From: Pelagomonas calceolata
Taxonomy: Eukaryota; Sar; Pelagophyceae; Pelagomonadales; Pelagomonadaceae
DNA: 64,000 bases
NCBI GenBank assembly: GCA_918797485.1
Contig: CAKKNE010000006.1
Span: 2,418,001-2,482,000, forward strand
Direction of reading: 5' to 3'
The notes below the pieces were generated by a model. The model saw only the letters and a list, made by a program, of their open reading frames with translations. It had not been told where the DNA came from and searched no databases. The stretch's first letter is position 1; each line of letters opens with the position of its first letter. The position numbers and the translations under genes were made by a program. This document shows, one piece after another, positions 9,477 through 60,600 of the stretch.

Positions 9477-9502
9477 TAGCTAGCGGCATGTAAGACACTA
9501 GG
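9477..9502 (-). promoter_or_regulatory. CTAG-type upstream element (strong copy, opposite orientation)
   Basis: On the minus strand it reads CTAGTGTCTTACATGC then CGCTAGCTAG. It lies between the two tandem plus-strand SHQW/ankyrin genes, about 64 bases before the second start. This is the only good copy that points away from the adjacent downstream gene. Confidence 0.45.
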
Positions 9503-9565
9503 AAAGGGCTGCCTTCTTTGTCACTGTGACGGTGCTCTGCCTCGCAAGGGGCTGCCTATTCAAAG

Positions 9566-11530
9566 ATGGTGCGCTCGTCGCTCGGCCGCGCGGTCCTCGC
9601 CGACAGCGGGCTCGTCGGCTCCGAGGAGTACCCCTACTATGGCATTTCCGTGCCGGATTTTCTCAATCTGACCGAATGGCTGCCGCATGAGGCGCTGAAG
9701 GCGAGCGGCAAGGTGCGCCAGATGGGCGAGGCGGATGAAGTCATCTTCGTCTCGCACCAATGGACCAGCTTCTCGCATCCCGATCCCGCGGGCAACCAGC
9801 TGCGGGCGCTGCAAACGCAGATCCGGACGCTCATGAAAGGCAAGACGGCGGTCCGGAGCGACTACGGGCTCGACGCCGGCTATCAATATTCGATGCTTAC
9901 GACGGGCAAGGAGTGGGCCAAGCAGCTCCCGAACATGTACCTCTGGGTCGACTACTGCTCGATCCCGCAGCCGGGCGCCGCCGCCGGAGGCGTCCACGCG
10001 GCGCAGCACTCCGATCATAGAGAGGGAGAGGGAGACCTCGTCGCGCAGCTCAAGCAAGCCGTAAACAGCATCCCCTCGTACCTCGCGCGGTCGACGATGA
10101 TGTGGATTCTGGTGCCGCCGGTCAAGCACGAGTCGCTGGAGGGCGCGATCTGTGACTTTAACTCGTGGCGCAAGCGCGGCTGGTGTAGGCTTGAGTTCGC
10201 CGCCTCGAAGCTCTGCGCTGGGGATGATATGCCTTGTATGGTCATCACATCGGCCACGGCGACTCCTGAGTACTGCGCGCCTTGCGACATATTTAAGTTA
10301 TGTGCGGGCCGTGGCGACTTCACCGTCGACAGCGATCGGGACGCGGTTAACGATACGCTGACCAAGATGCTGCGCGCCAAGGTCGAACAATACGCCAAGG
10401 AAGATATTACTCTCTCGCGGATGATGCAGGTCTTTTCGCCCTTGTTCGTGCCGCGACACGCCTACTACGGTGCCGAGGGCCCCGGAGGGTTGGATCAGCT
10501 CAAATCTTTTCTGAGGTGGCGCAGCGATGCCGAGGAGGCGGCGTGGGAGGCCGAGACCGGCTGGAATCTCCTGACGCTCGCCTGCACGATGGATGACGGG
10601 CCGGCGATCGACGAGCTGCTCTCACAGGATGCGGCGACGGTCGAGCGCCTGTTTGCCGCGAAGGGAAATGATATGTGTGGTGCGGGGAAAAAGAATGCTC
10701 CGCTAAGAAGGCGCGAGCCGCTGGGACAAAAGCTGATGGACTATGCGAATGAGATGACACCGCTTGTTGCTGCGGCGACGTTCTGTAGCCGCCCTACGTT
10801 CGAGAAGCTTCTGGACGCCGGTGGGTTGGCCGCCGTTGAGCGTGACGGGCTAGGGTTGCTCGGCGTGCGGCCGTGCCTGTACAAGGGCGCCATAATCTCG
10901 GGGAATCACGAGAACGTGAGCTTGATCCTAGCGCGCTACCCGCAGTACGCGAACGCCGTCAATCCCGATAGTGGCTGCTGCCCATTACACATGGCCTGCG
11001 GTACGGCCGCGTGTCGCGGCCAGAAGCAAGTGATGGAGGCGCTGCTCGCCTCTCCGGCGAAGGAGTCGCTCAACAGCGTCGTCGCACCCTTCTATGGATC
11101 GGTGCTGGGCACGGCGTGCAAATTCAACGATCAAGATCCCGACACGGTCCGAATGCTACTGAAGGCCGGCGCCGACCCGTCGAAGCCCGAGCCTCTGATG
11201 CCGTTGGCTGTGAAGCTACGCCGCGTAACGGCGGTTTTGAAGTTCTTCGGCAACGTCCAGGCGCGCGGCTTCCACACGATGCTCGCCTCGTTACCTGCAC
11301 GCTTCAAGCAGTCTCCGACGCATATCGCCGCGAAGAAGGGCGATATGGCCCTCGTAAAGGTGCTCGCTGAGCACGAGAAGTTTCCGGTGGCCCAGTATGA
11401 AGATACCAAGGGTCGCACGCCCGTGGCGCTCGCCGTCGACGACACGGTGAAGACCGCAATCTCGGAAATCGTGGGACCAGCAGCGGCGGCGACGCCTGTC
11501 CCGGCCAACAAGGTTGCGCCGGAGCCCTGA
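9566..11530 (+). CDS. SHQW-domain and ankyrin-like protein, downstream copy of the tandem pair
   Basis: This 654-residue protein is intronless and collinear with the gene at 7243-9292 over its whole length. Both share VSHQWTSFSHPDPAGNQLRA, LW(I/V)DYCSIPQ, RGWCRLEFAASKLCAGDDMP and the C-terminal TKGRTPVAL. Differences concentrate in the region after the SHQW domain (a loop with GSAAVGSEG in copy one is shortened) and in the repeats. The leader just before the ATG (GGGGCTGCCTATTCA) is also conserved, so the duplication unit included at least part of the 5' UTR. The function is unknown. The SHQW core may be an enzymatic or signalling domain, with the ankyrin-like tail as a binding surface; this is inference. 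Confidence 0.85.
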   Translation: MVRSSLGRAVLADSGLVGSEEYPYYGISVPDFLNLTEWLPHEALKASGKVRQMGEADEVIFVSHQWTSFSHPDPAGNQLRALQTQIRTLMKGKTAVRSDYGLDAGYQYSMLTTGKEWAKQLPNMYLWVDYCSIPQPGAAAGGVHAAQHSDHREGEGDLVAQLKQAVNSIPSYLARSTMMWILVPPVKHESLEGAICDFNSWRKRGWCRLEFAASKLCAGDDMPCMVITSATATPEYCAPCDIFKLCAGRGDFTVDSDRDAVNDTLTKMLRAKVEQYAKEDITLSRMMQVFSPLFVPRHAYYGAEGPGGLDQLKSFLRWRSDAEEAAWEAETGWNLLTLACTMDDGPAIDELLSQDAATVERLFAAKGNDMCGAGKKNAPLRRREPLGQKLMDYANEMTPLVAAATFCSRPTFEKLLDAGGLAAVERDGLGLLGVRPCLYKGAIISGNHENVSLILARYPQYANAVNPDSGCCPLHMACGTAACRGQKQVMEALLASPAKESLNSVVAPFYGSVLGTACKFNDQDPDTVRMLLKAGADPSKPEPLMPLAVKLRRVTAVLKFFGNVQARGFHTMLASLPARFKQSPTHIAAKKGDMALVKVLAEHEKFPVAQYEDTKGRTPVALAVDDTVKTAISEIVGPAAAATPVPANKVAPEP

Positions 11531-14505: not shown

Positions 14506-14905
14506 TTTCTTATCTCTTAAGTTCGGTTCTCGTCTTCTTTCAAGAGGCATCCATCCGGCCCAGCGCGATGTGACAAGAATCCTGAAATCTAGTGGGTATA
14601 GCTAGCTCAAACGTAGATCCGTTCAACGGTGCAACGTCAACTCGGCGGCGTGCCGTCCACCTCCACGCCATCGACGCGACCTCTCCCCTCGACCCTCCCC
14701 GCGCGCGTCGCCTACTCACGCGAGCGGCACACGAGTCAAACACGCCGCACCACCGCGTCGGCACGACCCCCGAGGACCCCCGAGACGCCCGCAAGACCGT
14801 GATCCGTGCGCCGGCGGAGAAGCTTCTGCGACCCGCACTCACCTGAGCACAGATTTGCCAAGCAAGCTTAAAGGCTCCCAACCAGCACACTCACCGATAG
14901 ACACG
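14506..14905. other. Intergenic region with a CTAG-type copy and an introner core
   Basis: This 400-base stretch between two plus-strand genes holds a CTAG-type copy at 14590-14606 and, at about 14657-14675, the sequence CACGCCATCGACGCGACCTC. That sequence is the reverse complement of the introner core. No matching CTGTG/CACAG ends flank the core, so it looks like a remnant or part of a leader intron that I cannot delimit. Confidence 0.45.
14590..14606 (+). promoter_or_regulatory. CTAG-type upstream element (weak copy)
   Basis: CTAGTGGGTATAGCTAGC keeps both CTAG ends with a shorter, altered middle. It is oriented toward the cupin gene, 300 bases upstream of its start. Confidence 0.3.
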
Positions 14906-17877: not shown

Positions 17878-18052
17878 TCATCGTGCGCGCGCCACCGTTT
17901 GATACTGTGTCGTTTGTGTCGGCGCGCCACGCTTGTGTAAATATACCCCTCAATCGACTGACTCGGAAATAGTCCTCGTGTTCTAGGCTCGCGTCGACGG
18001 CTTGATCGCCGCTGCACCGCCTAGTATTTTTAGCAGAATGGCCGTTGGGTTC

Positions 18053-19186
18053 TTACGCGCTCCCCGGCGACGGCGTCTCGCGGGCGCGGAGGGCGGCTCG
18101 AGCCTTTATCAGATCGCGCCCGAGCCCTCCTGTGATCGGGTGCGCGCCACCGAACACGCGCCGCGCGATCCGTCTCGCGTCCTCAAGCGTCGTCACGGCC
18201 TCGTTGAGATCGTCGAGCGTGGCGTCAGGGTCCTCGCAGAGCGACGACGCGTAAGTCCACCTCGTCTTGAGCGTGACTCTATGCCCTTCTCCGAGAACGC
18301 GTCGCGCCACGGGCATTGTTTTGAGCAACAGCGGCTTGGCTTCTGCGTAGCGCTTGAGACTACCAAGGGACGACGCGTAGTTGAGGGCTGCTCGGAGTGT
18401 CGCTGGATGCTGTTCGCCATGGAACTTCAAACGCCCAGAGTATACGTCTCGCTCCACGCTTAGGGCCTTCTCCATCTGTCCAAGCTCTCCATACGTGCTC
18501 GCAAGATTGCTCTGCGCGACGAGAATGCCCTCTTCACCTGCGCCTATGCGCCGCAACAGAGACAACTGGGCCTCTTTCACGGACAACGCTTCTTCGTGAT
18601 GATTCGCCTCGTCTAACCCGTTCCCAAGCTGGTTAATTGCAAAGCCCCGAGTGGCATCCGTCTCCGGCCGCCCCACGTACGTCTTCCAGCAGGCCCATCC
18701 GATCGCGCACCGCACGACGCCGTGGTACTCTTGCTTGCACAGACTACACGTGTGCCACCGCCTCCACCTCTCAACCAACACCTTGTCCCCCAAATTGTTC
18801 TCCTCGGCCTCCGCGACCAAAATCTTCGCCTGCTCCGCCAGACACGACACATGCGCAAAACCCGCCGTCCCGCGGCACGAGCACCCGCGCACGAGGCCCT
18901 CCTTCGTCTTCCAGTGGAGCGCCTGCGTGCAGATGAAGCACGTCTGGTCCTTCGTGTCGTCCGCGCACGCCTCGACCGCGACCGCGACGGCCTCCTTGTA
19001 TTTTTTGTCGGCATTGTACTGCTCTGCGTTGCCGCCGCGGTGTATTTTCTTACACATCTGCTTGTGGCCGCGGCGCCAGTGGTCATGCTGGCATGTCGAG
19101 TCACAATAGCGGGTCCAACATCTAACACAACGCGGCGCGGTGTGGGCCAGTGGGGCGGCGCAGGCGGCGCAATTTGTGAGGATCAT
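18053..19186 (-). CDS. MYND / RING-CH / TPR protein, copy 1 (left arm of inverted pair)
   Basis: This is a 377-residue protein. An N-terminal MYND finger (CAACAAPL...CVRCWTRYCDSTCQHDHWRRGHKQMC) is followed by a RING-CH-like zinc module (CFICTQ...GLVRGCSCRGTAGFAHVSCLAEQ...CSLCKQEY), the type found in MARCH ubiquitin ligases. The C-terminal half has TPR-like helices (LSVKEAQLSLLRRIGAGEEGILVAQSNLASTYGELGQ...HPATLRAALNYASSL...GEGHRVTLKTRWTYASSL), resembling kinesin-light-chain TPRs. It may be an adaptor or E3-type protein; activity is not proven. It is transcribed divergently from copy 2 at 19312, with 125 bases between start codons. Confidence 0.85.
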   Translation of the reverse strand: MILTNCAACAAPLAHTAPRCVRCWTRYCDSTCQHDHWRRGHKQMCKKIHRGGNAEQYNADKKYKEAVAVAVEACADDTKDQTCFICTQALHWKTKEGLVRGCSCRGTAGFAHVSCLAEQAKILVAEAEENNLGDKVLVERWRRWHTCSLCKQEYHGVVRCAIGWACWKTYVGRPETDATRGFAINQLGNGLDEANHHEEALSVKEAQLSLLRRIGAGEEGILVAQSNLASTYGELGQMEKALSVERDVYSGRLKFHGEQHPATLRAALNYASSLGSLKRYAEAKPLLLKTMPVARRVLGEGHRVTLKTRWTYASSLCEDPDATLDDLNEAVTTLEDARRIARRVFGGAHPITGGLGRDLIKARAALRARETPSPGSA

Positions 19187-19311
19187 TTTGCGTTGGCGGG
19201 CCGTCTATAGAGCGTTCGCGTCGCGCGGCGGCGTTTTTGTGAATGAAAAAATCGGGTTTTCCAAGCCGAGCCAAGCCGCCGCAACCCCATAACTCACCGC
19301 AAAAACGCAAG
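19187..19311. promoter_or_regulatory. Bidirectional promoter between MYND copies 1 and 2
   Basis: Only 125 bases separate the two divergent ATGs, so initiation for both genes must lie here or overlap the genes. The inverted repeat formed by the paralogues extends slightly into it: AACGCAAAATGATCCTCAC on one side matches AACGCAAGATGATCCTCAC on the other. No CTAG-type element is present. Confidence 0.6.
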
Positions 19312-20442
19312 ATGATCCTCACAACATGCGCCGCCTGCGCCGCCCCACTGGCCCACACCGCGCCGCGATGTATTAGATGCCAGACCAGATACTGCAATCA
19401 GACTTGCCAGCATGACCACTGGCGCCGCGGCCACAAGCAGATGTGTAAGAAAATACACCGCGGCGGCAACGCGGAACAATATAATGCAGACAAAAAATAC
19501 AAGGAGGCCGTCGCGAAGGCGGTCGAGAAGTGCGCCGACGACACGAAGGGCCAGACGTGCTACATCTGCACGCAGGCCCTCCATTGGAAGACGAAGGAGG
19601 GCCTCGTGCGTGGGTGTGCGTGCCGTGGCACGGCGGGCTTCGCGCACGTGTCGTGTTTGGCGGAGCAGGCGAAGATTTTGTTCGCGGAGGCCGAGGAGAA
19701 TAATTTGGACCATAAGGCGAAGGATGATAGGTGGGCGCGGTGGTTCTCGTGTAGTCTGTGCAAGCAAGAGTACCACAGTGTCGTGGCGTGCGCGCTGGGG
19801 TGGGCATGCTGGAAGACGTACGTCGGGCGGCCGGAGGCGGATGCGGTTCGCATGGCGATGGGCGTACTTGGGAGCGGTTTACACGTAGCAAGATACTACG
19901 CGGACTCGTTGTCCGTGAAGGAAGCCGAGTTGTCTATGCTGCGGCGCCTTGGCGAACAAGAAGAGCATATCCTCGTCACTCAGACCAATCTTGCGGGCAC
20001 GTATCATGAGATCGGACGGTTTGAAGAGGCCAACCGCTTGCTGCGAGACGTATACTCCGGATGGCTAAAGTTACAAGGCGAAGAAGATGAACGAACCATC
20101 CAAACAGCCAACAACTACGCGAATGCCCTTGTTCGTCTAGAGCGTTTCGAAGAAGCCAAGCCACTGATACGCAAACAGATTCGCGTGGCAAGACGCGTTC
20201 TCGGAGAAGGGCATAGAGTCACGCTCAAACTGCGGTGGCTTTACGGGCGGGCGCTCTACGGAGATGTCGGCGCCACGCTCGACGATCTCCGCGAGGCCGT
20301 GACGACGCTCCAGGACACGGAACGGATCGCGCGGCGCGTGTTCGGCGGCGCGCATTCGACCACAGGAGGGCTCGGGCGCGATCTGTCCAAAGCTCGATTT
20401 AACCTCAGTGTCCGCGAGACGCCGTCGCCGGGGAATGCGTAA
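19312..20442 (+). CDS. MYND / RING-CH / TPR protein, copy 2 (right arm of inverted pair)
   Basis: This 376-residue protein is collinear with copy 1. The MYND finger (CAACAAPL...CIRCQTRYCNQTCQHDHWRRGH) and RING-CH module (CYICTQALHWKTKEGLVRGCACRGTAGFAHVSCLAEQAK) are nearly identical to it. The TPR half is more divergent (LSVKEAELSMLRRLGEQEEHILVTQTNLAGTYHEIGRFEEANRLL). The start is set at 19312 because MILTTCAACAAPL aligns with copy 1 and copy 3; the frame opens 23 codons earlier but without conservation. The last codons (RETPSPGNA) are repeated as DNA immediately downstream. The zinc half is conserved and the TPR half is drifting, which suggests shared machinery with different partners. Confidence 0.85.
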   Translation: MILTTCAACAAPLAHTAPRCIRCQTRYCNQTCQHDHWRRGHKQMCKKIHRGGNAEQYNADKKYKEAVAKAVEKCADDTKGQTCYICTQALHWKTKEGLVRGCACRGTAGFAHVSCLAEQAKILFAEAEENNLDHKAKDDRWARWFSCSLCKQEYHSVVACALGWACWKTYVGRPEADAVRMAMGVLGSGLHVARYYADSLSVKEAELSMLRRLGEQEEHILVTQTNLAGTYHEIGRFEEANRLLRDVYSGWLKLQGEEDERTIQTANNYANALVRLERFEEAKPLIRKQIRVARRVLGEGHRVTLKLRWLYGRALYGDVGATLDDLREAVTTLQDTERIARRVFGGAHSTTGGLGRDLSKARFNLSVRETPSPGNA

Positions 20443-20496
20443 GAAATTGAAAAGCTCCGCGCCCGCGAGACGCCGTCGCCGGGGAGCGCGTAAGAA
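20413..20496 (+). repeat. Short duplication of the 3' end of MYND copy 2
   Basis: A ~33-base unit starting CGCGAGACGCCGTCGCCGGG and ending GCGTAAGAA occurs at 20413-20445, covering the stop codon. It recurs at 20464-20496 with two changes. The second unit would encode the same RETPSPGSA tail and stop, and it matches the tail of copy 1 (PSPGSA) more closely than copy 2 itself (PSPGNA). Confidence 0.75.
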
Positions 20497-20520
20497 CGCA
20501 AAGGCTCACTAAAACTAAAC

Positions 20521-27272: not shown

Positions 27273-29648
27273 ATGGCCACCGCCACCTTCTCGACGCCCG
27301 TCCGGGAAGCCCTGGCGAAGTACGGCGCCTAGCTGTGTGGAATCAAACAGTGAGTTAGTTTCCTCGCGTCGATGGCGTGCAATCTACACGCCATCGAGCA
27401 GATGCTGTTACGGGGACGACGTCGCGTCGATGGCGTGGGGCATCCAAAATTTGATTTCCACACAGACATACAGGATTTAGCGTTTAGCAACGAGTCGCCG
27501 AGGTTTCGGGCCGGCTACGATTGGCACCGGCAAGAGTTACAAATTGCAGATGAACATTTAGAGCGACTCACGAGTGGAAGTCAAGCGGTCGTAAGGGCCT
27601 TACAAGTGCTCGGAAGTGCCTCGGGTCGACTCGCAGCTGATCTAGAAAGGACGCCGGCCGTGTTTCAAGCATTACCAGTCACAGCCCGACTAGCCGGTGT
27701 TTTGCAAGATCTGGCGTCGGCCGGTGATGTCTTAGCTGAATCGTTAGATCTCTCATTACGGACACCCTTGGACGCCCTGCGGTCTGATGTCAGTAGAATC
27801 GACGACAAAAAACGCGCGTGCGACCGCGCCGACGACCAAGCTTCGTCTACGGAGGCCGATTTATTAAGGGGCGACTGGCGGCGAGTGGAGAGAGATGTGT
27901 TGAGAGGCGAGAAGCTGCGGAGTCGGGGCGAGGAGTCGGACCTGCCTCGAAGCATCGCGGCCGTGGTCGATCAACGCGCTAGGAACTGCGCGGAATCTCG
28001 GAGGTTGGCGGAACTGCGACGGTTTGAACTCGCGAGGTTCACGTCATCGTTACGACGACGGACGGGGCTCGTCCTGGCGGAAGCCGCGTTAGCTGCTCTC
28101 TGTTCCTTGCGGGCGTTCCACGCCCAGGCCGCGCACGCCGTCTCCGATGCGACCACAGCGGCGCATGCGGCACACACCACAATCGCGAACGCGTGCGACG
28201 CGGAACGGGCGCCCTGGGATTACCGCATGCTCAAGTTGCAGGAGACGTTGAATGCGATGCCCCACCTCTCGTCCCAAAATTCGAGCTTCGTCAAGGCCCA
28301 CGAGGGTCAACCAGTAGATGATTTGTTGAGGGCCGCGGAGAGCGCTTACGGCACTTATGATGTTGAGTCGAGGTTGTCTTCTCTCTATGCTCCTTCTCAA
28401 ACATCTTCCTCGTTGGAGGGCTACCTCTGGTGTCAAACAGTAGGTATTCGGAGCGGCCCCTGGCAGCGGCGCTACTTTTTACTTGGAAGTGCGGAGCTAC
28501 GCGTCTCCAAGAGCGAACCTTCGACGATCGGTGGTTTGTTGTCGGCAGCTCTCGCTAGAGAGTTATCCGAGGACGAGATGCGTCAGAACAACGACGACGA
28601 GACGGAGTTAGTTGCTACCCTTTTACTCTCTTCGGTGAAAACGTGTACGACCGCGAGGTGTGCCTTCGAGGTCCGATCCGCCCACGGCTCACCGTTACGC
28701 TTGCAAGCTAGAGGTGATGCGGACCTCACGAGGTGGACGCAAGCCATCACCAAGGCCATCGCCGACCAATTGACCAGAACACCAAAAGCTTCGAAGAAGG
28801 TCGCGACGCCCGCACCAGTGATGACGAAGACGCCCTCGTCCAAGAGCCCTTTCCTGCGGCGGACCGTGTCTACGTCACCCGCACCATTACCGAAGCAAGG
28901 TGAACTGCTCCGTTCATTTTCGTCGCCCGAGATGAATGATAGACCCTACACGCCGCCGCCGCCGCCGCCCGCCGCGTCGCCCACCGGAATAAGGGAGGCC
29001 GCGCGGTTGCGGCGCGTCGCCGCCGTCGAAGCCTTATCGACGACTTGTTGTGACTGCGGTGCTAAACGCCCTGAGTGGGCGGTCATCAATCGCGGGTGTT
29101 TGGTCTGTTTGAGGTGTTCCGGCGTTCACAGAAGCTTGGGCACGCACGTCTCCAAAGTCCGTTCGTTGCGCTTGGATCGGCTATCGGACGCGACGCTACG
29201 CTTTTTAGAAGCTGTGGGCAACGACCGATGCAACGAGGTCTTCGAGGCGGCTTTGGCGCCAGACATGAAGCCCCGCCAGAACACGGACTCGAAACGGCTG
29301 CAAGCGTTCATTCGCGCGAAGTGGGCGCAGCGGGCCTACGTTTCCAGCGACGGTGTGGATCCGGATGGCGCGTTGCGCGATGCCGTCAGTTCATCAGACG
29401 TCTTGAGCGCTCTTGCGGCGCTGGCCGCGGCGCCGGACCCCTCGGCGTTGCTGGCGCGGCGGGACGGCGGCGAGGCGCCCCTGCACCTCGCGGCGCAGAA
29501 AGGCGACCTCGTCGTCGCGGCGCTGCTCGTGCTGAACGGCGACAGCGGCGAGTTGCTGAACGCGGTCGACGCCGAGGGGCGGCGGCCGCACGACCTGCTG
29601 TCGGGCGACGCGGCGGAGGCGCTCGCGGAGCTGCTGCGGCCGCGGTAG
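27273..29648 (+). CDS. ArfGAP with BAR-like, PH and ankyrin regions (ACAP/ASAP type), one introner intron
   Basis: Exons 27273-27324 and 27466-29648 give about 744 residues. Exon 1 encodes MATATFSTPVREALAKY. After splicing comes a helical BAR-like region (~20-290), a PH domain (EGYLWCQTVGIRSGPWQRRYFLLGSAELRV..., ~335-455), an ArfGAP zinc finger CCDCGAKRPEWAVINRGCLVCLRCSGVHR (CxxC-x16-CxxC with the catalytic Arg, ~560-590), and C-terminal ankyrin repeats (GGEAPLHLAAQKGDLVVAAL). Such proteins sense membrane curvature, bind phosphoinositides and stimulate GTP hydrolysis by Arf. Without the intron, exon 1 meets a TAG stop after only 19 codons, which supports splicing. The stop is 11 bases from the convergent MYND copy 3. 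Confidence 0.88.
27325..27465 (+). mobile_element. Introner intron in the ArfGAP gene (141 bp; element 27333-27465)
   Basis: The element starts CTGTGTGGAATCAAACAGTG and ends AAATTTGATTTCCACACAG, so it has inverted CTGTGTGGAA(A)TCAAA ends. Inside are two copies of the core GCGTCGATGGCGTG and one inverted ACGCCATCGAGCAG, able to form a hairpin. The in-frame splice uses a GC donor (TAC G|GCGCCTAG) and the element's own CACAG acceptor. Unlike the other full copies, the two flanks (GCGCCTAG and ACATACAG) do not match, so the target duplication has been lost or the copy rearranged. Confidence 0.8.
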
Positions 29649-29659
29649 TAGGGGGTATC

Positions 29660-30784
29660 TTAACTTATGGTTTTTCTTACAAGGATGGTTCGCGCGTCTC
29701 GTATTTCAGCCTCAATGTCCACTGTGAGCGGGTGCGCGCCACCTAACACGCGCCGCGCGGTCCGTTCCACGTCCTCGAGCGTCGTCACGGCCTTGCGGAG
29801 ATCGTCAAGCGTGGCGGCGGGGTCCGCGTAGATCGTCTGCGCGTAAAGCCACCTCATCTTGAGCGTGAGTCTATGCCCTTCTCCGAGAACGCGTCGCACC
29901 AAGGGCATCGTTCTGCGCACCAGCGACCTGGCTTCTCCGAAGCGCTGTAGCCGGGCAAGGGACGACGCGTAGTTGTTGGCCGCTCGGAGGGTCTCTTCAT
30001 GTTCTTCGCCGCCGAGCCTCAAACGTCCAAAGTACACGTCTCGCTTAATTAGAACGGCCTCGTCATACCGTCCCAGTACCTCATACGTGCTCGAAATATT
30101 GCTCTGCGCGACGAGAATGGCGACTTCTGACTTACCATTGCGCCGCACCAAAGACAACCGGGACTCATACACGGACAACGCATCCTCGAGGTGGCCCGCC
30201 TTGAATAAACCGTTCCCAAGTATCGACATCGTCATGTTTCGAACCTGATTTGTCTCCGGCCGGCCCAGGTACGTTTTCCAGCACGCCCACGCGAGCGCGC
30301 CCCGCACGACGCCGTGGTAGTCTTGCTCGCACAAACTGCACGTGTCCCACCGGCGCCACCTCTCATCCAACACCTTGTTGTCCAAATTATTCTCCTCGGC
30401 CTCCGCGAACAAAATCTTCGCCTGCTCCGCCAGGCACGAAACATGCGCAAATCCTGCCGTCCCGCGGCACGAGCACCCGCGCACGAGACCCTCCTTCGTT
30501 TTCCAGTGGAGGGCTTGGGTGCAGATGTAGCAGGTCTGGCCCTTCGTGTCGTCGGCGCACTTCTCGACCGCGACCGCGACAGCCTCCGCGTACTTGGTAT
30601 TTGCGTTGTATTGTTCCGCGCCGCCCGCTTTTTTTATCTTCTTGCAGAGCTTGTCGTGGCCGCCTTCTTTCCAGTGCTGCACCTGGCATTCGGCTCCGCA
30701 GTAGCGCGTGCTGCAGCGGCCGCATTTCTTGCCCAAGGTTAGCCCAAGCTCGGTGGCGCAGACGGCGCACTGCGTGAGGATCAT
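29660..30784 (-). CDS. MYND / RING-CH / TPR protein, copy 3
   Basis: This 374-residue protein is collinear with copies 1 and 2. It has a MYND finger (CAVCATELGLTLGKKCGRCSTRYCGAECQVQHWKEGGHDKLC), a RING-CH module (CYICTQALHWKTKEGLVRGCSCRG...CSLCEQDY) and TPR-like repeats (LSVYESRLSLVRRNGKSEVAILVAQSNISSTYEVLGRYDEAV). The MYND half is the most diverged of the three copies, while the RING-CH core is almost unchanged. The start is set at the MILTQC methionine, aligned with the other copies; an ATG 17 codons upstream is in frame. It lies about 9 kb from the inverted pair. Confidence 0.85.
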   Translation of the reverse strand: MILTQCAVCATELGLTLGKKCGRCSTRYCGAECQVQHWKEGGHDKLCKKIKKAGGAEQYNANTKYAEAVAVAVEKCADDTKGQTCYICTQALHWKTKEGLVRGCSCRGTAGFAHVSCLAEQAKILFAEAEENNLDNKVLDERWRRWDTCSLCEQDYHGVVRGALAWACWKTYLGRPETNQVRNMTMSILGNGLFKAGHLEDALSVYESRLSLVRRNGKSEVAILVAQSNISSTYEVLGRYDEAVLIKRDVYFGRLRLGGEEHEETLRAANNYASSLARLQRFGEARSLVRRTMPLVRRVLGEGHRLTLKMRWLYAQTIYADPAATLDDLRKAVTTLEDVERTARRVLGGAHPLTVDIEAEIRDARTILVRKTIS

Positions 30785-30860
30785 CTTGTATATGGTTAAA
30801 TCGCTTGGGGGCAGCCGTACGATGCAAAAGCACACTCGATACGCTTTTTTGTTTTTGTTG

Positions 30861-32905: not shown

Positions 32906-34457
32906 CTATCGCTGGAACCGCCCCCCGAACACGAGGTACCAGAGCGGCGAGGGCTCGGGCGGCGGCGGGTTCTTCAGCGCTTCGACGTCTTCGGCGTAGG
33001 GCTCGCAGATGGCGCGTGCGTACGAAGGAACATGCCGCGTTGCGCGCGTCCCCATCCTATCGTCGCAGAAGAGCTGATTGCGGATGTAGTGGTAGTCGAT
33101 CGAATAACGTGCGAATTCGAGACCCGTCGGCAGCGTTCTCGCAATGACGTCCGCGAGAATGTTCGCGACGAACGGCGGCGCGCCCTGGTTGCCGGCGACG
33201 AAGTCGGGTTCCAGCAAAGTCTTGACCATGGAGTCGCCTTGAACAGTCTTCACTGTTATTGATCGCCGGTCGCCCGTCGACGGCAGCTCGCGCCCGCCGA
33301 CGCCGCCTCGCTGCAGGATCTCGACCCGGCCGCTCGCGACCGCGGTGTCGAGCATCCTCCGCCCCCGCTCGTTCCGTACAGTAACCATGAGTGGTGCGGT
33401 CGTCATCTCGTCCCGCTTGGCATCGAAGGGCGCCCCCATGTACCCTACCACAACGTCCGCAAGACCATTGGTATAATCGAAGCAAGAGAAGCAGCTCGGC
33501 GCGATCGACGGCACACCAATGCTAGGAGGCAAGGTCATGTACGCAGGCTTCACCGTCTCCTCTTCATCAGAGCCTCGGAGGCGCGCGTGGACGCGGAAGT
33601 CGGCCATAAATTCGTAGGCCAGCACGTCGTCGGCGCGCTCCTCTCCGACCCCTGGGAGAGTGGAGACGAATTTTTTCGCGGCCTCGGGAGTGGGGGAGTT
33701 GTCGACGCAGTGCCTGTGCGCAAATCGACCAGTGAGTCAGGTGGCTCGCGTCGATGGCGTAGGAGAGCCGCAAAGTTGATTTGGGCACTGCGCAGTGCGT
33801 TCCTAGGACATACAGCTCGTCGAGGTTCAGCGCCTTCACAGGATCGCCTTTATTGATGCCTCTCAAAGCTTGCACCGAGCACCCGACGCCGCAGAACAGC
33901 AGCCTTTTTATGGACGCGTCGTCCCGCACCTGGTCCAAGATGGCCAACGAGGGACACAGCGACGGCTTGACCCTCCTACCGCGTAACACGTCCTCCTTTG
34001 TACGACACAACACGGGCTCGGGCGAGCCAAAACCATCTTCGGAAGAACCAGCAACAACAACCGCGTCGACCTCGCCCGCTTCCAACCAGGCGAGGGCTAT
34101 TCCAGTGGCAACCCCCGTCCACTGCGCCCCACCGACGTTGCCGCGCGCCAGCAGGATCTCGTCGTGGACCCCAAAATACGCTTCGTCCAAGTTACTGGCA
34201 TCGTAGGCGCGGCTCCGGCCGTGGACCCGCTCCTCGAGCCCTTCGGCCCTTGCCATGCCGTCGCCGATAAACGCGCAACTATCGGTCACGGACGCGATGC
34301 CGACGTCGGTCTTGCACAAACCACAATTGCTGCAGAGGTCCTTGGCCGGGAAGGCCTGGGGCCAGGCGCCGGTTATGGCCCGCGGGGTTGTTGTGGTCGA
34401 GAGGGCCTCGGCTGCGGCGAGCAGGAGGACCGCGGCGGCGGCGTGAAGCTGCGGCAT
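32906..34457 (-). CDS. HCAR: 7-hydroxymethyl chlorophyll a reductase (FrhB family), one introner intron
   Basis: Exons 34457-33799 and 33713-32906 give 488 residues. This iron-sulfur flavoprotein reduces 7-hydroxymethyl chlorophyll a to chlorophyll a in the chlorophyll cycle. Visible are a hydrophobic leader (AAAAVLLLAAAEAL), the Cys set CSNCGLC (near residue 42), FCGVGCSVQAL, then across the junction LGTH|CVDNS, YEFMADFRVH, IAPSCFSCFDYTNGLADVVVGYMG, TVRNERGRRML and GLEFARYSIDYHYIRNQLF. These match plant and algal HCAR closely. The intron falls inside the conserved LGT(N/H)CVDN block; only exact removal at the target duplication restores it. Plastid location is inferred from function and leader. 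Confidence 0.92.
33714..33798 (-). mobile_element. Introner intron in HCAR (85 bp; element 33714-33790, reverse orientation)
   Basis: On the coding strand the intron runs GCACTGCG|CAGTGCCCAAATCAAC ... GATTTGCGCACAG|GCACTGCG. GCACTGCG is a perfect 8-bp target duplication (33791-33798 and 33706-33713). The first copy supplies a GC donor and the element end supplies the AG acceptor, so the mature message reads GGA ACG CAC TGC GTC GAC. The element's plus strand (CTGTGCGCAAATCGACCAGT...) aligns with the left ends of the FkbM and ArfGAP copies. It therefore sits backwards relative to the gene. It holds one core (GCGTCGATGGCG). Confidence 0.93.
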
Positions 34458-39623: not shown

Positions 39624-42600
39624 ATGCTGTTGCAGACGGCGCGCGCGGCCCCGCGCGTGCTGCGGACAGCGCACCGCCACAAAGCGTCCTCGGTTGCCGC
39701 TCTACTGCACCGCGACGACGCCCAGCCACTTGCGAGCTCGGCCCGCCGCGCTGCGTCCTCGGTCGCCGCTCTCCATGACGACGACGAGGCCCAGAAGACG
39801 ATCGCCAAGGTCGTCTCGCGCTACGCGCGCACGCAAGAGCAGCTCGTGCCCTGGTTTCTCGAGCAGATGCCGCGGAGCTACTTCGCGTTGGTCCCGGAGA
39901 GTTCGCAGCTCGCCCACCTCCAGGCGGCCGCGGGGCTGTTTGATCCGGCTCGAGGCTTCGACGTTCTCGATGAGGTCCGCGCGGCGTCGGCGGACGACGG
40001 CACCGTCACTTATTTGACCTCGGGCAACGCGCCGGGCACGCTCGCGCGGCAAGTCCGCACGCTCGCCGGACAAGGAGAACTCACGGGCCTCAAGGTCTTC
40101 ACTTCTCGCGACGAGACGTTGTGTTTGAATGTTTTTAATTTCGACACGGCGGCGCCGGACTCGTGCTTCGAGGCCGAGGATGCGCTCGCGCCGCACTTAC
40201 AATACGCGCGGGCGAAGGGCGGCGAGGGCTTCTGGAGCGAGGCCGCGGTGCGCGCGCACGCCGACAAGTGCTCCTTAGATTATCAACTCGGCACGCGGCC
40301 CGCGCACTGGGCGCGCCAAAGAGCTCTGTTCGAACGCGTGGCAGGGTCGGACGCCGTGGCGGCGCGCGTCGACGCGAGCAACGGCAGCGCTTGGCTGACG
40401 GTGGTGGCGCCGAACACTCTCCCCGCCTCATTCTTGCACAAGGTGCTGAGACTCGTCGCGGCCCACTCCCTGGACGTCAAGCTCGCGGAAATGGACACGG
40501 TCGAGGACTGCCTGATCCTGCGCGTGTTGGTGACCGGCTCGGCGAACTGGACCGACGTCGCCGCGGTTAGTGAACGCCTCAAGTGGCTCGGCGAGACGGC
40601 GCTCGTGCCCCTCTTCGCGAAGGGCGCGCCGACGGCGCGGGACGCGACGTTGCTAGAGGTGCGATACGCGCTTGAGACGCTGGCGCAGCGCACGCTCGGG
40701 TGCTCGCGCGACCGCGTTGCGAAAACTTTGAGAAGCCACGGCGACCTCGCGGACGCCGCCGCCAAGCTTTTGCTGAAGCGGCCCGTCGGTCGCGGCGACG
40801 GCGGCGATGTGAAGGAGCTGCTCGCGAGCGTCGACGCGGTCACTGATGAAGCGGAGAAGGAGGTTCTCGCCGAGGTCGTGCGCCACGCCACGACGTGTCT
40901 ACAAACGAACGTGGGCCGCGCGGACCGGCAGGCGTTAGCTCTCGTCCTCGACCCGAGCACGCTCTCGGACGGGGCCGAGCCCCCGGCGCGCGTCGTCTTC
41001 GTGGCGGGCCGGCGCTTCGACGCCTTCCACGTCAGCATGCGTCCGGTCGCGAGGGGCGGAGTTCGGCTTGTCACCCCCAAAACGCCGGAGGCGCTCGCTC
41101 ATGCCGCTTCTAGACATTATGACGAGTGCCGCGACCTCGCGCAAGCGCAGCAGCTCAAGAACAAGGACATCCCGGAGGGCGGCGCCAAGGCCGTCGTTCT
41201 GGTCGACGCCACGGGCCACGGCGACGACGCATGGGCGGGCCGCGGGCGGGGTGCGTTCCGCGAGTACCTGAACCGCAAGGCCGTGTCCGCCTTCGCCGAC
41301 GCTTTGTTAGATGTGAGCCTCGAGAGCGAAACGCTGCCGTATTTGGGCCCGGACGAGCAGGTCGTCCCGCAAGACATCACGCGCATCGTCGCGAACGCGG
41401 CGCGCCGCGGCCACCCGCGGCCGGAGGCGCTGATGTCCTCGAAGCCCGGCGCGGGCATCAACCACAAGGAGTTCGGCGTCACGAGCGAGGGCGTCGCGGT
41501 GTTTGTGGAGCGGGCGCTGCGCGAGGTCGGGATCGACGCGCGGAAGGACGCCTTTCGGGTCTCGCTCGTCGGTGGGCCCGACGGCGACGTCGCGGGCAAC
41601 TTACTGAAGATCATGCAACGCGACTGGCCGTCGGCGCGCGTCGTCGGCGTGGCGGACGGCAGCGGGTACGCTGAGGATCCCGAAGGTTTAGATGGGAACG
41701 AGCTCCGGCGCTTGGTGGAGGCCTCGGCGCCGATCGCGGCGTTTGATAGCAAGCTGCTAGGGAATCGCGGCACGCTCCGGACGGCGGACGACGGTGACGG
41801 AGCCGCGCTGCGCGATACGATGCACTTCCGCGTGGACGCCGACGTGCTCGTGCCGTGCGGCGGGCGGCCTGGAACCATACACGCGGGCAACGCGCGGGAA
41901 TTTCTCAAACCGGGTGATGATGCCGCGCCGGGTGCGCCGCGGGCCCCGATCTGTGTGGAAATTCGAGCAGGGTCGCGTCGATGGCGTGGAGGTCGACGCG
42001 ACGATTCAGCACGAACGCGCCGTAAATTTGATTTCCGCACAGGCCCCGATCATCGTCGAGGGTGCCAACCTGTTCCTGACGCCCGAGGCGCGCCAGATCC
42101 TCCACAAAGAGGCCGGTGTGCTCGTGGTCAAGGACTCGTCCGCCAACAAGTGCGGCGTCGTGTGCTCTTCCTATGAAATCTTAGCTGCGCACTTATTGTC
42201 CCGGAGCGCGTTCGAGGCGCAGAAGGGGGTCATCGTCGCGGAGGTCCTCGACCGGCTCCGCGCGTTGGCGTCGTTGGAAGCCGACCTGCTGTTCAAGGAG
42301 TACTCGCGCTTCCCGGGCGCGCTGCCCGACTTCTCGCGGCGCATCTCGGAGGCGATCAACCTCGTGGCCGACGCGGTCGGCGCGACGGCGAGCGACGACC
42401 AGGTGGCCGCACTCTTCGCAGAGCTCGCGCCGGAGCACCTGCCGCCGACGCTCGCTCAACTCGCCGTCGCGGCGCCGGAAGCACTGCCGGCCGGCTACGC
42501 GCGCGCCTGCGCGGGGTCTTTCGTGGCGACGAGACTCGTCTACGGCGAGGGCATCACGCACGTCGAGGCGCTCGGCAGTGACCCCGCACGCCTCGCGGCT

Positions 42601-44194: not shown

Positions 44195-45152
44195 ATGTGG
44201 CGCTGGCTCGCCGCCCTCCCCTGGATACTTAGAGGAGAGGCGAAGTTCGGCTCCCATCGACGGGCCTGCGCCCTCGACGAGCAGGAATTAATCAGAAACA
44301 CGCAACACAACGAATTCCACCAGATCATAAATAGCATGCACGGGCCGCGGTGCGGCGGTTTTTTTGTGGAGGCGGGAGCGAACACGGGCGTCAATTCCGT
44401 CACGAGGGCCTTTGAGCGGATCGGCTGGCACGGGTTGTGCGTCGAGGCGAGCCCGTATTTGTACCACAACTTCCTCGTGAAGAATAGAAAAGATTGTGAG
44501 AATATTCATGCTGCGTTAGTAGATGGTCCGGACCAGGTTGTTTTTAGAGCATACACGGAGAGGTTAGGAGACCTCTCGGGCATCGAGAGCTTCCGAACAC
44601 AAAAACAGTGGGCGAAGATGGAGCGGGAACATGCCAACGACAAGCGGAAATGGCGGTTAGAAAGGACGAACGTCACCGCGCTGTCTCCAGCAAAGCTGGT
44701 CTTCGGGAGGGGACATGTAGATTTATTCTCACTCGACGTCGAGGGCGCGGAGCTGTGTGGAAATCAACCAGTGCGTCGGGTGCACCCGACAATTCTTCAC
44801 TAAGTCATTTCTCGGCGATGACGCAGCCGTCCTGGCTCGGTCGAGCGGCGAGGAACCGGCATCGCCACGCCATCGAGCAGGCGTCGCGTCGATGGCGTGG
44901 AGGTCGACGCGACGATTCAACACGAACGCGCCGTAAAATTTTGATTTCCACACAGGCGCGGAAATGAACGTCCTGAAGAGCTTCCCCTTCGACGAGGTGC
45001 GCGTGGACTTCTGGTTCGTCGAGACGAATAAATTGGACCGGGAGGCGTTCATGACGTTCATGAGTGGCAAGCACTACCACTGCCACCACGTCGACCACGT
45101 CAACACGCTATGTCGACATAAAGATGTCAGGGCGAACCGGCGGCGGCGGTAA
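44195..45152 (+). CDS. FkbM-family methyltransferase, one introner intron
   Basis: Exons 44195-44744 and 44956-45152 give 248 residues. Motifs are FFVEAGANTGVNSV (SAM-binding loop, ~52-65), GLCVEASPYLYHNF (~78-91) and, across the junction, LFSLDVEGAE|MNVLKSFPFDEVRVDFWFVETN, the second conserved FkbM block. These enzymes O-methylate small molecules or sugars using S-adenosylmethionine. A short hydrophobic start (MWRWLAALPWIL) might be a signal anchor. The intron splits VEGAE, and exact removal restores VEGAEMNVLKSF, matching the family's VEGAE.EVLKS pattern. Without splicing the frame stops 18 codons after the junction. The substrate is unknown. Confidence 0.88.
44745..44955 (+). mobile_element. 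Introner intron in the FkbM gene (211 bp; element 44753-44955)
   Basis: The flanking target copies are GCGCGGAG (44745-44752) and GCGCGGAA (44956-44963), matching at 7 of 8 bases. The element starts CTGTGTGGAAATCAACCAGTG and ends AAATTTTGATTTCCACACAG. It is the longest copy in the window. It holds the palindrome GTCGGGTGCACCCGAC (44775-44790) and a hairpin CACGCCATCGA...TCGATGGCGTG around 44868-44901, followed by GTCGACGCGAC. The donor is the host GC and the acceptor the element's AG, phase 1. Confidence 0.92.
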
Positions 45153-45482
45153 GTTTGAGTTTGTTGTGAGGTAACTAGTGCGCCACCGCGCGCGGGGAAA
45201 TCGTACTCCCCCCGCGCCGCCGAGGAAACGCCGCGTCGACGGCGTGGGGGAGCCCTCGAGACGCGTCCCGCAGGCCGTCGACGCATGCCGCTCTAGCATG
45301 CGAGGCTAGTAGCACCATCGATGGCCGCCGGCGCTGCTCATTTTGGGGCAGCGTTGGCCGCCGAACACAAGGAGCACTGCTCGACAAAACACAACACCAT
45401 GGTCGCAGCGGCGCCAGGACGACGACGAAGCGCTGCGGCGTGACAGACATAACGACGAGGCAGTAGCCCCCAGGACACAACC
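45153..45482. other. Intergenic region before the RCC1 gene
   Basis: It includes CGCGTCGACGGCGTGGGGGA at about 45230, an introner-core variant without transposon ends, and a poor CTAG-like pair (CTAGCATGCGAGGCTAG, 45293-45309). It probably holds the promoter and leader of the RCC1-type gene. Confidence 0.4.
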
Positions 45483-50742: not shown

Positions 50743-50964
50743 CTCGGCCCAGTGCCTACCCTGTATGGTTTTGGCTGCCTATTGTGGTCGCATCGCTCCG
50801 GCAAGGCTGCCCCGGCGGCCTAGGAGCACGTTGTTGTATGTGGCACAACGCAGCCGGTGATTGCTCTGCGCATAAACCGCGTACGAGGTGCGCCACCGGA
50901 AATCTGCTCGGGTTCGGGTTTTGCCGCCGCCCCGACGCCATCGACGCGAAAAACACAGGGCATT

Positions 50965-54642: not shown

Positions 54643-57600
54643 CTACGTAACCTTGAACGCGTCCGCCTGCTGCGAGTTCCGCGCGGACTCCTCGGACGAG
54701 CGGCGCGACCGTCGCCGCTCGATCTTCGCGAGGAGGTATTTTCGTTTCATCTTTCGCCGGATGTAGAAGTAGGTCACCGTCACCATCCCGATGAACATGC
54801 TGATAACGATGAGCCACGTCAGCGTCCAGGCTTCGAAGCTCGAGGGGATTTTGATGAGCATGTGACAGCTCATATACCTATCATACCTGTGGGAATCGAT
54901 CGGTGAGCCTCCACGCCATCGACGTAACGAGACGCGGGCAAAATCGCGTTTCGTTGACGGTCCCTTCGAACCCGCGCCGGCAGCTCCTCGTCCCGAACAT
55001 TTCATCAGGATCCAACAGATTGCGGTAGTTGACCATGTCCATCACGGCAAAGGCCGGGCCCTTGCCCAAGAGGTCCTGGAACGGGCCCCGGCACTCGCGA
55101 TGCGCCGTCCACGGCCCGAATATGCCAATGCCGCCCTTCCTCATGCAGATATTCTCGATGTACTTGGCTTTGCACCAGCACGTGCACTCGTTGGGCGCGG
55201 TACAATTCCCGCGCGAGGCGTAGTAGCCGCCCGGTTCGCCCGGCGCGCCCCGGAACTCGTCGGGCACCGGCCGCAGCGGCCAGATGCCGATCAGGCCGCA
55301 CGGGCTCTTCTCGAAGGCGTCGACCTTGTTCTCGTCGAAGGTCATGAGCTGGCGCCGCTCGAGAGGGGTAGCGACGCGCTCGCAGACGGGCGTGCGGCAG
55401 TCGTAGCCCGTCCAGCCTTCGGTGCAGGTACAGGTGTCCGGCGCCGTGCAGTAGCCCCCATTGGGACAACGGTAGCAGCCCTCGCCGCCCGGCGCTTGCG
55501 GTATTCCCTTGATGGGACCGCTACAGAAGGGGTCGAAATAGCCCTGCACGCATATCGGCATCGTGCAGTCCGTGCCCTGCCAACCCGTCGCTCCGCCCGG
55601 CGCATTGGGGAATTTCTCGTGCAAGACACTGAGTGCGGTGACGCACTCACATGTGTCCTTCTCCTTGCAAACACCACCGTTCTCGCACGCCGCGACCTGT
55701 TCGTCGGGATACTGGAGGTGGCGGCAGAGCGGCGTCCGGCAGTCGAAGCCACCGTAACCGTCCTTGCACGTGCAGACGTCCGGGGCTATACATGTGCCGC
55801 CGCCGAAGCACTCATACATGCCTTCCCCACGAATCGGCTCGCCGTAGTACCACTGGTCCTCCTCGCCCTCGCCGCCCTCGATCTTCGTGATGTTCGGCGT
55901 ATTAATTCTAATGTGCCGCCCGATCTCGAAGCGCTGCATCGGCGCGTCTTCGATGCCCTTCGCATCACTCGGCCCGATGCCGTACTCGATGCCCACACCA
56001 TCCGCTCGCTCGCAGGCCCCTCCATCATCACAGAGCCCCGCGTCGTCGACGTAGTCCCCTTGCCACCACTCCGTCATGCCACACAAAAACTGGTGCGACG
56101 TCGAATTGGTTTTTGGGTCATCCCTTCTACCAGAATCGTACTGGGGCCGCTTCTTGTAGACCTCCTGCCAGTCCATCTGCATCTGCGTCGGGCCGCAGAT
56201 GCGGATTTGTTGGGAGCCCAATCGTCCCGTATAGAACTCGTCGGGGACTTGGTTGTAGGTGTAGCGCGGGATGCCGGTAAAGCAGGTCTGCTTATGCCGG
56301 TCCTCGCAGGTCGCTTCGGTGTACAAGCAGCCGGCGGCCACATCACACCTAGCTTCTCCGGTAAAGCCCGCCGCGGCCTGCTCGTGGAACATCTCGTCGC
56401 ACGTGCCCGGTCCTGTTGTGGTATAAACACAGGGCGCGGGGCACCTCGACGCCCCGCCCTTCGCGTGGTCGTCGAAATTCGCGGCGCAGTCCCCCGGACC
56501 GCCCGTCGCCGGCTCCGTGCAGGTCCCCGGCTCGGCGCAGATACTTTCGTAGGTCTGGGCCTGGTATTGTTCGGCGGCCGACACGTAGCCGACTCTTTTT
56601 AAAAGCCATTCGTCTTTACAGGGGGAGTCGCTTTGCTCACAATTCTTCGCTTTGGACACGACGATGCCGTTCTCCACAATTTCCCCGCAGGCCGGGCTCT
56701 GGCATTCGCCCCAGAAGACCTCTCTAGCACCTTGCAACATAGAAGCAGCAGCACACGTGAAATTGACCAAAACGCCGCGCTCGTCGTACTCATATAACTT
56801 ACGACCATCTTGTTTCAGTTTACCGTAGGACGGCGAAGCCGGATCCGTGTCAAACACTCGATCCGCTCTCCTCAACTCCCCGGACCACGACGACCCGGGA
56901 CAACTGATACAATCATACGCACCGACGTCTTTGAAGTCCGGGTCATTGGGATCCTTGAGGATGCCTTCTTCCGCGAAGCGGTTCGCGAAGTAGTCCTCGA
57001 AGACTGACCGAGTCTGCCAGTAGCGCGTGCAGCAGCCCGTATCTAATACATCATACCCACAACCCTTCGGGAACGACTCGCCCACGTTGCTGACGACCAT
57101 GCGGTCGTAGGACGGGCACCGCGGCATGGCGACCGGCAGTCCAGTTTCAGGATCATTGGCACCGCACTTCTTCACGCGGTATTCGTTACCCTGGTTGTCG
57201 AACCGGATAATGTCCTCCCTACCGTCGTAACCGCGCCCGCCCAGCTCCGTGTATAAGACGGATCTTAACTCTAGACATAACTTCGTCTGGGCCTGCCAGG
57301 AGCACGTCGCGTTCTTCTCGCAGGGGTCCTGCTTCTTGCCGGCGCAGCCGATCGGGTCCCGGCCGCCTCCTGCCAATGTTATCGTCTGGTCCTTCAGCGC
57401 GCCGGGATCCGTGACGACCGCCTCGCTCAACAACTTCTCGCGGATGTCCGCGGCAGGCCCCGCATTGAGCGTGAACTTTTCCGCTTGGGTGCAGATGGGA
57501 GTGGCACAATCAAAACCCGTCCAGCCCGTCTTCTGCGGGTCGCCGTTCGGTTTTCGGAAGAGCGGTCTCTTCACCGTATGGCCGGAAGGCCACGTCGAGT

Positions 57601-60600
57601 CCCAGAGCTTGCACTTGCACGTGTCGGGCGCGACGCACTCGCCGTTGTGGTAGCATTCTTGCGCGCAGACGGGCCGGTCGCAGTACTGGCCCTCCCAGCC
57701 GGACTCGCAGGTGCACTCGCCTGCGTGGCACGGACGCCGTCGCGACACTGCCTCCGTTCACTCACGAGACTGTGTGTAAGTCCACCGCGACGCCATCGAG
57801 CCGACGTCACGTCGATGGCGTACAGGGGAAGCGGTAGGCTCTCATGCGACCACGCCGAGGGCGTCGAGGCGAAAAGAACGGACGCCGCGTCCGCACCGGG
57901 CATCGTGCAGTTCCCGTTGTGCTGGCACGGCTCGTCGCAGACCGGCACGGAACAGTCGTGGCCGCTCCAGCCGTCCGCGCATCTACAGGTGTCTGGGGCC
58001 ACGCACGTGCCGTTGTTGTAGCAGCCCCGCAGGACCTCATCCACACATTCGCCGCCGATGGACGTCCAGGCGGACTCAAACCCATACGCCCTAGCATCAT
58101 CATACGTAATCCGAGGGCGGTAGGCGAAATCAGTATCTTGCACCGCCACATCACTCATAGTTGGTGGCGTGATGCCACCTATTCGCTGTTGCTGAGAACC
58201 ATCAACAAACGCGCGAGCCTTGCTACGCGTGTCGGGGACGTGGAACTCGGGCACACCTAGATCATCATCGAGGACCCCAATGTCGGGATGATCCGGGTTG
58301 GGACAGACCCTCTTAAACTCCATGAGGCAGGTCCCGTACTCCCACGTATTATTGGTCGTGATCCAGACGCCGTCGCGGCGATGGCCCTCGTTCGTGTAGA
58401 CGTACGTGACCTCTTGTTCGGCCCTTGTACCTTCATACAACGTATGCGTGATATCGAGCTTGGCCGTGGCGGCGTGCGTCGGCGGCCACTCCATGCCGTC
58501 GTCCCAATAGGTATAAGTGATACCATTGAGCTGCTTCTCGGAGTTCATGTAGCGACTGTAGAAGTTAAAGTGGTCGTAGACGGTGCCCGGCTTCTCCCAG
58601 AGCGTGAACGCCCGAATAGAACACCTGTAGCCGCCCTGCGGGCCGTGCTCGTACAAGTATCTGACACCCGGATGGGTCACTTCCGTCCTCACTAAAGTTT
58701 TATGATCGGCAAACACTTCTTCATCTAACACGAAATCAGGATTGCTATAAGGCCAGTCCCGCCGATGGGCCGACATGTTCTGGTCGAGCGCCCAGTCGAA
58801 ATTCGATAATTCCGTCGTCTTCTCGGTGCCGGAGACAAATTTCTCTTGCTCCGGAAAGTAGTAGCCCTGCGTGCAGATCGGCGTTCGACAATCGAAGCCG
58901 CCCCAGCCCTCCTCGCACCGACAGACGTCCGGAGCGGTGCAGTTGCCGTGGTTCGCACAGACATAAACGCCCTGCGTGACGTTGTGCAATTCGAAGAACG
59001 CCACCTGCCTGTCACTCGCGTGGTTCCAGGGCCGCGTGCGGTCCTTCCCCCCAATCATCGGCCCGATCGGCGCTTTCCACGGCCAGCCCGTCGCGTTCCA
59101 GTTGTAGGGGCCGCCCGTGTAGTAGCGCATGAACGCCGTCGTCTTGTTCGTCGCTGTTGAATATTGGAACTGCGTCCAGGCGTCCTCTCGCACCTCGAAA
59201 CTGTCGCATCTCTTGGGTCGGTTCCGGAAACCGGTCACATGCAAGTAGTTCGGACCGGACTTGGCCTCCATGATCGTATAGGTCCGTTCCGGTTGCGCAC
59301 AATCAAAGCCTTTCGTCGCGTTGCACCACTCCTTGAAAAAACAAGGTCTATACATGGCCCACGTTCGCGGTCGCACGTCCAAACCAATCGATTGGTCTTC
59401 GGACACGCGAGGCCCGGCCTGCGTCGTCCCATAAGCTTTAAATTCGCCCTGATGACACACGGGCAACCCGCAGTCGTGGCCGTGCCACTGCGGGGGACAT
59501 TGACAGGTATTTGGCGCGACGCACCGCCCGCCGTTCTTGCATTCCTGGTCACAGACCGGTGCGCGGCAGTCCTCGCCACTCCACTGCGACGGGCACGTGC
59601 ACGTGTCCGGCCCCGTGCAGTTGCCGCCGTTGCCGCACGTCGTCGCGCAGACGGGCGTCGTGCAATTCGCGTCGAACCACCCGTACTTGCACGCGCACGT
59701 GTCCGGCGCGACGCATTCTCCGCGATTCGCGCACTCCTGGACGCAGAGCGGCGTCTGGCAGTCGGCTCCCGACCATCCTGGTGAGCAAGCACAGGCGTCG
59801 GGGCCGACGCAGACCGACCGTTTTACGGACGAACAGAGGACACCAGCCGCCGGTACGGGAGGTTTCGTATCTATGCGCGTCGGATATGGGGATGCCGAGG
59901 GATACGACGTCGGTACTGCTGAAGGTGCTTCGGTAGCCATCAGCAATCGACGCCGCGAAAAGCCGGCAAATTCAACAATCGACGCGCCAAAATTCAGCAA
60001 CTTCGCAGCAGCGGTACAGATCGGCGCGGCGCAGTCACTCCCGCCCCAGCCCTCCTGGCACTGACACTTCTCCGGTCCAATACAAACCCCGCCGTTCTCG
60101 CACGGTTGGCTACAGACCGCCGTGATCTTGCGGATGACGTTGTTGCCCGCGTCGGCGACATATATGGACTCGTTGGCCAGTTGGAGGGACGGTTTGCCTT
60201 GATATAAAGCGATAGCGGCGGGCCGATCAAAAGCTGCGGCTAGCGGGGGATAGCCGTCCGCAAAACCGCAAGCCCGTTCGAGGGGCGCTCGCGCGACGCC
60301 GGCGATGGTCTGCACCTCCCAGGGCCCGTAGTCGTGATACGGTTCGAACATGAGCAACCTTTCCACTTTATAAGGACCGCCTTCGTCCCAGGAACCATAG
60401 AGCGTGGCCATGACTCCGGTGCTATTCCCAGTTCGATCTCTCGTAAAGACCGTCGGTGCTATTGTGGGCCTTGCCGTTCTTTTGGGCGTCGGTTCGGCCG
60501 ACGGCAGGACCGTGGGTTCGGCGGACGGTGGTGTGGTGGGCACCATGGACGGCTGCGGACTGCCGCCGAAGAACGTCGGTTTCAATGTTACTGTTGGCAG

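Follow-up and report, generated by a model that had tools for sequence, protein, structure and literature searches.

Described introners and the copy in HCAR

In their 2016 abstract, Huff, Zilberman and Roy reportedly describe introners in which one splice site is carried by the element and the other is co-opted. Several known systems come close to the one considered here. The introners of Aureococcus anophagefferens and Micromonas pusilla, to which we liken our copy by description, are small, non-autonomous DNA transposons that have inverted ends and make target duplications. They likewise reportedly have one carried and one co-opted splice site, and they insert in both orientations, a finding that PMC10228655 ascribes to Huff et al. 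2016. According to PMC7789003, the splicing motifs of the Aureococcus elements are canonical, in contrast to the GC proposed below. In Micromonas, GC donors occur in 46% of complete D-IE1 copies and 34 intronic introners lie on the opposite strand (PMC4815162), so that M. pusilla D-IE1, although known from a green alga and likened by description, is similar in both respects. Among introner families, GC 5' splice sites make up 0-50% of a family's copies (PMC9860276). The same paper (Fig. 2B) describes introners with a duplication and inverted ends in which the 3' site is carried and the 5' site is derived from the duplication. Those of Symbiodinium microadriaticum share all of this with our copy as read here, but their duplication is 4 bp and not 8 bp. 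An Aureococcus sp. family (MAG family 4, Fig. 2F; example at 3289-3365, 77 bp), from a perhaps related host, matches ours in its 8-bp duplication and in the length of the example; however, it carries both splice sites and adds 12 bp (4 from the introner and 8 from the duplication), whereas exact restoration is favoured for our copy. For Pelagomonas calceolata itself, PMC9481584 reports intron lengths that peak around 210 bp, called characteristic of introner elements, tabulates a G+C content of 63.6% against 67.4% in A. anophagefferens, and mentions RNA reads from strain RCC100.

We analysed a window of 64,000 nucleotides of P. calceolata DNA, whose G+C content is 63.6%. Our main reading, to which we give a probability of roughly 0.8, is that a short non-autonomous DNA transposon inserted in an exon of the HCAR gene and now acts as an 85-nt GC-AG intron with a co-opted donor. 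If so, it would be a clean case of a new intron arising by transposition, in a conserved gene of the chlorophyll pathway, with its ends, duplication and restored motif still intact. Its 85 nt are far shorter than the introns of about 210 bp mentioned above, which a 211-nt intron predicted in a nearby FkbM gene does fit. The parts of the mechanism, namely GC donors, duplication-derived donors and insertion in both orientations, are already in print; the HCAR copy is an added example and leaves the known picture of introners unchanged. The sequence-only reading, which presented orientation-independent use together with a GC 5' splice site as what this copy shows directly, was mostly right but in this respect oversold, as GC donors and insertion in both orientations have been published. 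The features of the locus are as follows.

32906..34457, minus strand: HCAR (7-hydroxymethyl chlorophyll a reductase) gene; match to 5dqr, E 6.1e-101; coordinates checked
33714..33790, gene on the minus strand, element's own direction plus: introner copy, 77 bp; inverted ends 10/12, alignment to other copies
33706..33713, minus strand: duplication copy that would stay in the exon, gene sense GCACTGCG; 8/8 identical to 33791-33798
33791..33798, minus strand: duplication copy opening the predicted intron; proposed GC donor at 33798, 33797
33714..33798, minus strand: predicted GC-AG intron, 85 nt, junction 33799/33713; top of 141 pairs, and homologues

The element and the HCAR reading frame

On the plus strand the 77-bp element reads CTGTGCGCAAATC...GATTTGGGCACTG and is bounded by CGCAGTGC at 33706-33713 and 33791-33798, identical at 8/8 positions. 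In gene sense its ends are CAGTGCCCAAATC and GATTTGCGCACAG, which form imperfect terminal inverted repeats. The coordinates, the ends and the perfect duplication proposed earlier were all confirmed.

With the predicted intron taken out (34457 to 32906), the HCAR product has 488 aa, of which residues 35-462 match the Arabidopsis HCAR chain 5dqr, amounting to near full-length homology after excision. Outside the element the frame is intact across the 488 aa and near to Arabidopsis HCAR. If the segment is retained, the frame is shifted and the read-through ORF stops at 33567 after 296 residues. Deletion of the element and one duplication copy brings back the LGTHCVDN motif of HCAR, gap-free against the Arabidopsis protein. 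We scored 141 GT/GC..AG pairs of 30-220 nt at this site against Arabidopsis HCAR. At least 400 residues stay open in 38 of them, and the top score, 839 against 825 for the runner-up, belongs to 33798..33714 (85 nt, GC-AG). Among the nine registers (0-8) across the duplication, GC-AG is found in register 0 only and GT-AG in none. Thus, the GC donor that the sequence-only reading took from the first duplication copy is the best-scoring choice and the sole GC-AG register, although it is deduced from register and frame and not seen directly. Taken together, the 85-nt segment is probably spliced out by the host spliceosome as a GC-AG intron, to judge from the genomic sequence.

Homologous HCAR loci, 60 in total, were fetched via an alignment that included the Arabidopsis sequence. 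Nearly all are titled cyanobacteria, that is, they are bacterial records, in which the absence of an intron is expected. One of them (L060) matches residues 43-91 only and stops short of the junction, and was left out of the junction count. The junction is gap-free in all 59 loci that span it, which are mostly close kin of one another and represent far fewer than 59 independent witnesses. All 59 read (L/I)G..C(V/T)DN, with alignment gaps starting only past N, and GTHCVDN itself is present in two. Restoration of LGTHCVDN by removal of the segment, as claimed before, is therefore borne out by the 141 pairs, by Arabidopsis HCAR and by the spanning loci. The HCAR protein used alone found no confirmed relative among the genome contigs. 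As a side observation, HCAR-like matches in L025 (1501-2625, titled Bifidobacterium breve) and L060 (1501-1638, titled Candidatus Phytoplasma tritici) suggest mislabelled or contaminated assemblies.

Related copies in the window and their orientation

The family has four copies in the 64 kb, and ends, duplication and intron register come together in three of the four. The other three copies, with the introns predicted for two of them, are listed below.

41951..42042, plus strand: forward copy in the GDH gene; duplication GCCCCGAT, 8/8, at 41943-41950 and 42043-42050
41943-42042, plus strand: predicted intron in GDH, 100 nt
44753..44955, plus strand: forward copy in the FkbM methyltransferase gene; duplication, 7/8, at 44745-44752 and 44956-44963
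44745-44955, plus strand: predicted intron in FkbM, 211 nt
27333..27465, plus strand: forward copy where the ArfGAP gene begins; duplication not recognisable, uncertain as an intron

In geometry the copies in GDH and FkbM, whose duplications are 8/8 and 7/8, match the one in HCAR. Terminal inverted repeats agree at 10/12 positions in HCAR, 11/12 in GDH and 12/12 in FkbM, where the ends are CTGTGTGG...CCACACAG. Removal of 41943-42042 restores APIIVEGANLF in GDH and that of 44745-44955 restores DVEGAEMNVLK in FkbM. A profile built from the four copies returns HCAR (E 1.9e-16), GDH (9.8e-14, from 41962), FkbM (1.8e-29) and ArfGAP (3.6e-31), all of which it recovers by construction.

Orientation was assessed by aligning the interior of the HCAR element, with the terminal 13 bases left off, to the other copies, using 300 shuffles per comparison. 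Scores in the element direction, in reverse and for the best shuffle are 44.3, 22.1 and 41.6 against GDH, 33.7, 16.3 and 25.2 against FkbM, and 50.8, 31.0 and 42.0 against ArfGAP. Since the alignments in the element direction exceed both the reversed ones and the shuffle maxima, the HCAR copy is inverted in its gene and the GDH and FkbM copies are forward, and the inversion proposed relative to the three sister copies holds in 3/3 comparisons. The ArfGAP copy stands as a sister in so far as its element aligns and is forward, but the duplication is absent: its flanks, GCGCCTAG and ACATACAG, agree at 3/8 positions. In addition, an ATG within this copy starts an open frame that runs into the gene (27372-29648). 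It is because of these flanks and this frame that its intron status is uncertain.

Chance was considered in two ways. The first test counted, in the whole window and in 15 Markov-1 simulations, pairs of exact 8-bp duplications that enclose 40-700 bp and have inverted ends of at least 9/12; the window has 15 such pairs and the simulations have a mean of 1.07. With ends of at least 10/12 the count is five against 0.07, the five being GDH, HCAR, 19075-19423 and two at 49-52 kb, a very GC-rich part with a base composition that the Markov-1 simulations do not reproduce. In the second test, C[TA]G ends were required and a 7/8 duplication was allowed. It gave 6 pairs, of which 4 have at least 9/12 against a mean of 0.05 in 20 simulations, and 10/12 is reached by 3 (FkbM, GDH and HCAR) against 0.0. 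The second test is partly circular, its ends having been chosen post hoc from known copies; this does not apply to the first. We did not accept 19075-19423 as an introner, because this exact duplication, with its palindromic 8-mer, forms the middle of a large inverted repeat.

More distant traces of the family were sought at the 17 places with the 12-bp core CGTCGATGGCGT. Two segments, at 54890-54965 and at 57770-57825, probably represent degraded relatives of the element and were left out of the copy count. The first is element-like, ends in GATTCCCACAG (minus strand) and lies where the frame of a minus-strand gene changes; an in-phase GC donor is on offer there and the duplication is not recognisable. 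The second lies, reversed with respect to the gene, in an apparent GT-AG intron of a minus-strand gene that is EGF-repeat-like from reading its translation, and no duplication was seen there. Profile matches at 45173-45255, 14646-14684 and 50925-50951 (E 0.0002-0.006) were also not counted, no ends with a duplication being seen at them. No copies beyond the window were found when viral contigs were scanned for exact matches to four patterns of the family, and Rfam and tRNA scans across the window gave no matches.

Donor choice and competing readings

The scheme that we favour for HCAR would run as follows. An introner enters the exon and makes an 8-bp target duplication. The GC donor would then be the dinucleotide that opens the upstream copy of the duplication, and the element's own end (...GATTTGCGCACAG) would provide the AG acceptor. 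One duplication copy would leave with the intron and the other would remain in the exon, and because of this the HCAR mRNA would be restored exactly. The inverted orientation would be possible because the inverted ends, as in FkbM (CTGTGTGG...CCACACAG), give CACAG at the 3' side on either strand. In the HCAR copy itself, a terminal AG is found at one end and the opposite end reads CACTG instead of CACAG. With AG at one end only and CTG at the other, this copy does not by itself demonstrate use in either direction, contrary to what had been claimed for it; we infer such use at the level of the family.

In gene sense, the duplication starts with GC in all three copies that have one (GCACTGCG in HCAR, GCCCCGAT in GDH and GCGCGGAG in FkbM) and ends with GC in none. 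From the genes' own dinucleotide frequencies, three GC starts have P = 0.0011 (post hoc, n=3). On the other hand, if a donor may be either GC or GT, finding GC in 3/3 has an unremarkable P = 0.27. Therefore, the data favour a requirement for GC or GT that is tied to gene direction, with no special preference for GC. A target preference of the transposase as the source of the GC start is disfavoured, as GC tracks the gene and not the element in the inverted HCAR copy, an argument that is weak with three copies.

It might be argued that the donor is borne by the element, with splicing starting past its first four bases (CAGT/GCCC at 33786 in HCAR; CTGT/GTGG in GDH, FkbM and ArfGAP) and the mRNA gaining 12 nt, or four residues. 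This mode has been described for the Aureococcus sp. MAG family (PMC9860276, Fig. 2F). In HCAR such a donor leaves the frame open and ranks second among the 141 pairs (825), and in GDH and FkbM it is GT, again with open frames. Nonetheless, we consider it unlikely. It would insert four residues into LGTHCVDN at a junction that is gap-free in the 59 spanning loci, in every one of which exact restoration scores better by 4-6 bits. Moving the donor 12 nt later lowers the Pfam score of FkbM from 42.7 to 33.5 bits and that of GDH only from 67.8 to 63.6 bits. The GDH drop says little, because PDB relatives (searched with the longer version) have a gap or differ in length at that site; with the FkbM product, a PDB search gave no match up to E 0.1. 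Moreover, an element-borne donor does not explain why the duplication starts with GC in 3/3 copies, and its match to the consensus CAG/GTAAGT is 1-2/9 in each copy, as compared with 3/9 for each of the four co-opted donors (ArfGAP included). It is tempting to combine the two donors in a bidirectional, two-donor introner family, in which one insertion could yield two protein forms, but we would not expect this to hold; if it did, the co-opted donor would restore the protein and the element-borne donor would add four residues.

Another view is that the insertion is recent or rare and inefficiently spliced, so that the gene or allele is damaged and the motif is simply the pre-insertion exon. Indeed, taking out an insertion along with one duplication copy will on paper always restore the frame, and the donor, at 3/9, is weak. 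What makes this quite improbable is that the sole AG-ending register also starts with GC, that copies of equal register occur in two more conserved genes and that the remaining HCAR frame has stayed intact and close to Arabidopsis HCAR over its 488 aa. It is harder still to credit a non-standard route like that proposed for the introners of Amoebophrya (PMC7789003), in which a hairpin would assist removal of the segment, as an intron flanked by repeats, and the cut could fall at any point within the duplication. The direct repeats at the borders and the inverted ends do resemble those elements, and any cut inside the repeat would give an identical mRNA. However, the predicted fold of the HCAR intron is no better than that of shuffled sequences (z -1.08; GDH -1.82), and each of the three copies that have a duplication offers a GC-AG register.

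For spliceosomal removal of the HCAR segment, CTGAC with its A at -24 would be a plausible branch point by the general branch-point and U1 rules, and in the three forward copies TTGAT at -12 stands alone in the range examined. A branch-like motif is also seen on the opposite strand of the left end, as CTGACTCAC in HCAR and CTAACTCAC in ArfGAP, and is absent from FkbM and GDH. Set beside the forward copies, the HCAR copy offers a ready test of how far the spliceosome tolerates poor-consensus GC donors, and of which donors it uses, co-opted or element-borne.

A few further repeats were noted. In two of the four family copies the left subterminal region (33714-33745 and 27333-27365) contains the donor-like GTGAGT(C/T)AG, whose reverse, CTRACTCAC, is branch-like. 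At 7232-11355, two adjoining ORFs contain duplicated stretches separated by about 2.2-2.3 kb, whose longest blocks are 72-83% alike. The large inverted repeat mentioned above spans 18041-20505, with arms of 541 and 579 nt that are 88% and 76% complementary and two divergent ORFs; with another related copy, the third, some 11 kb off at 29660-30835, this makes a small dispersed gene family.
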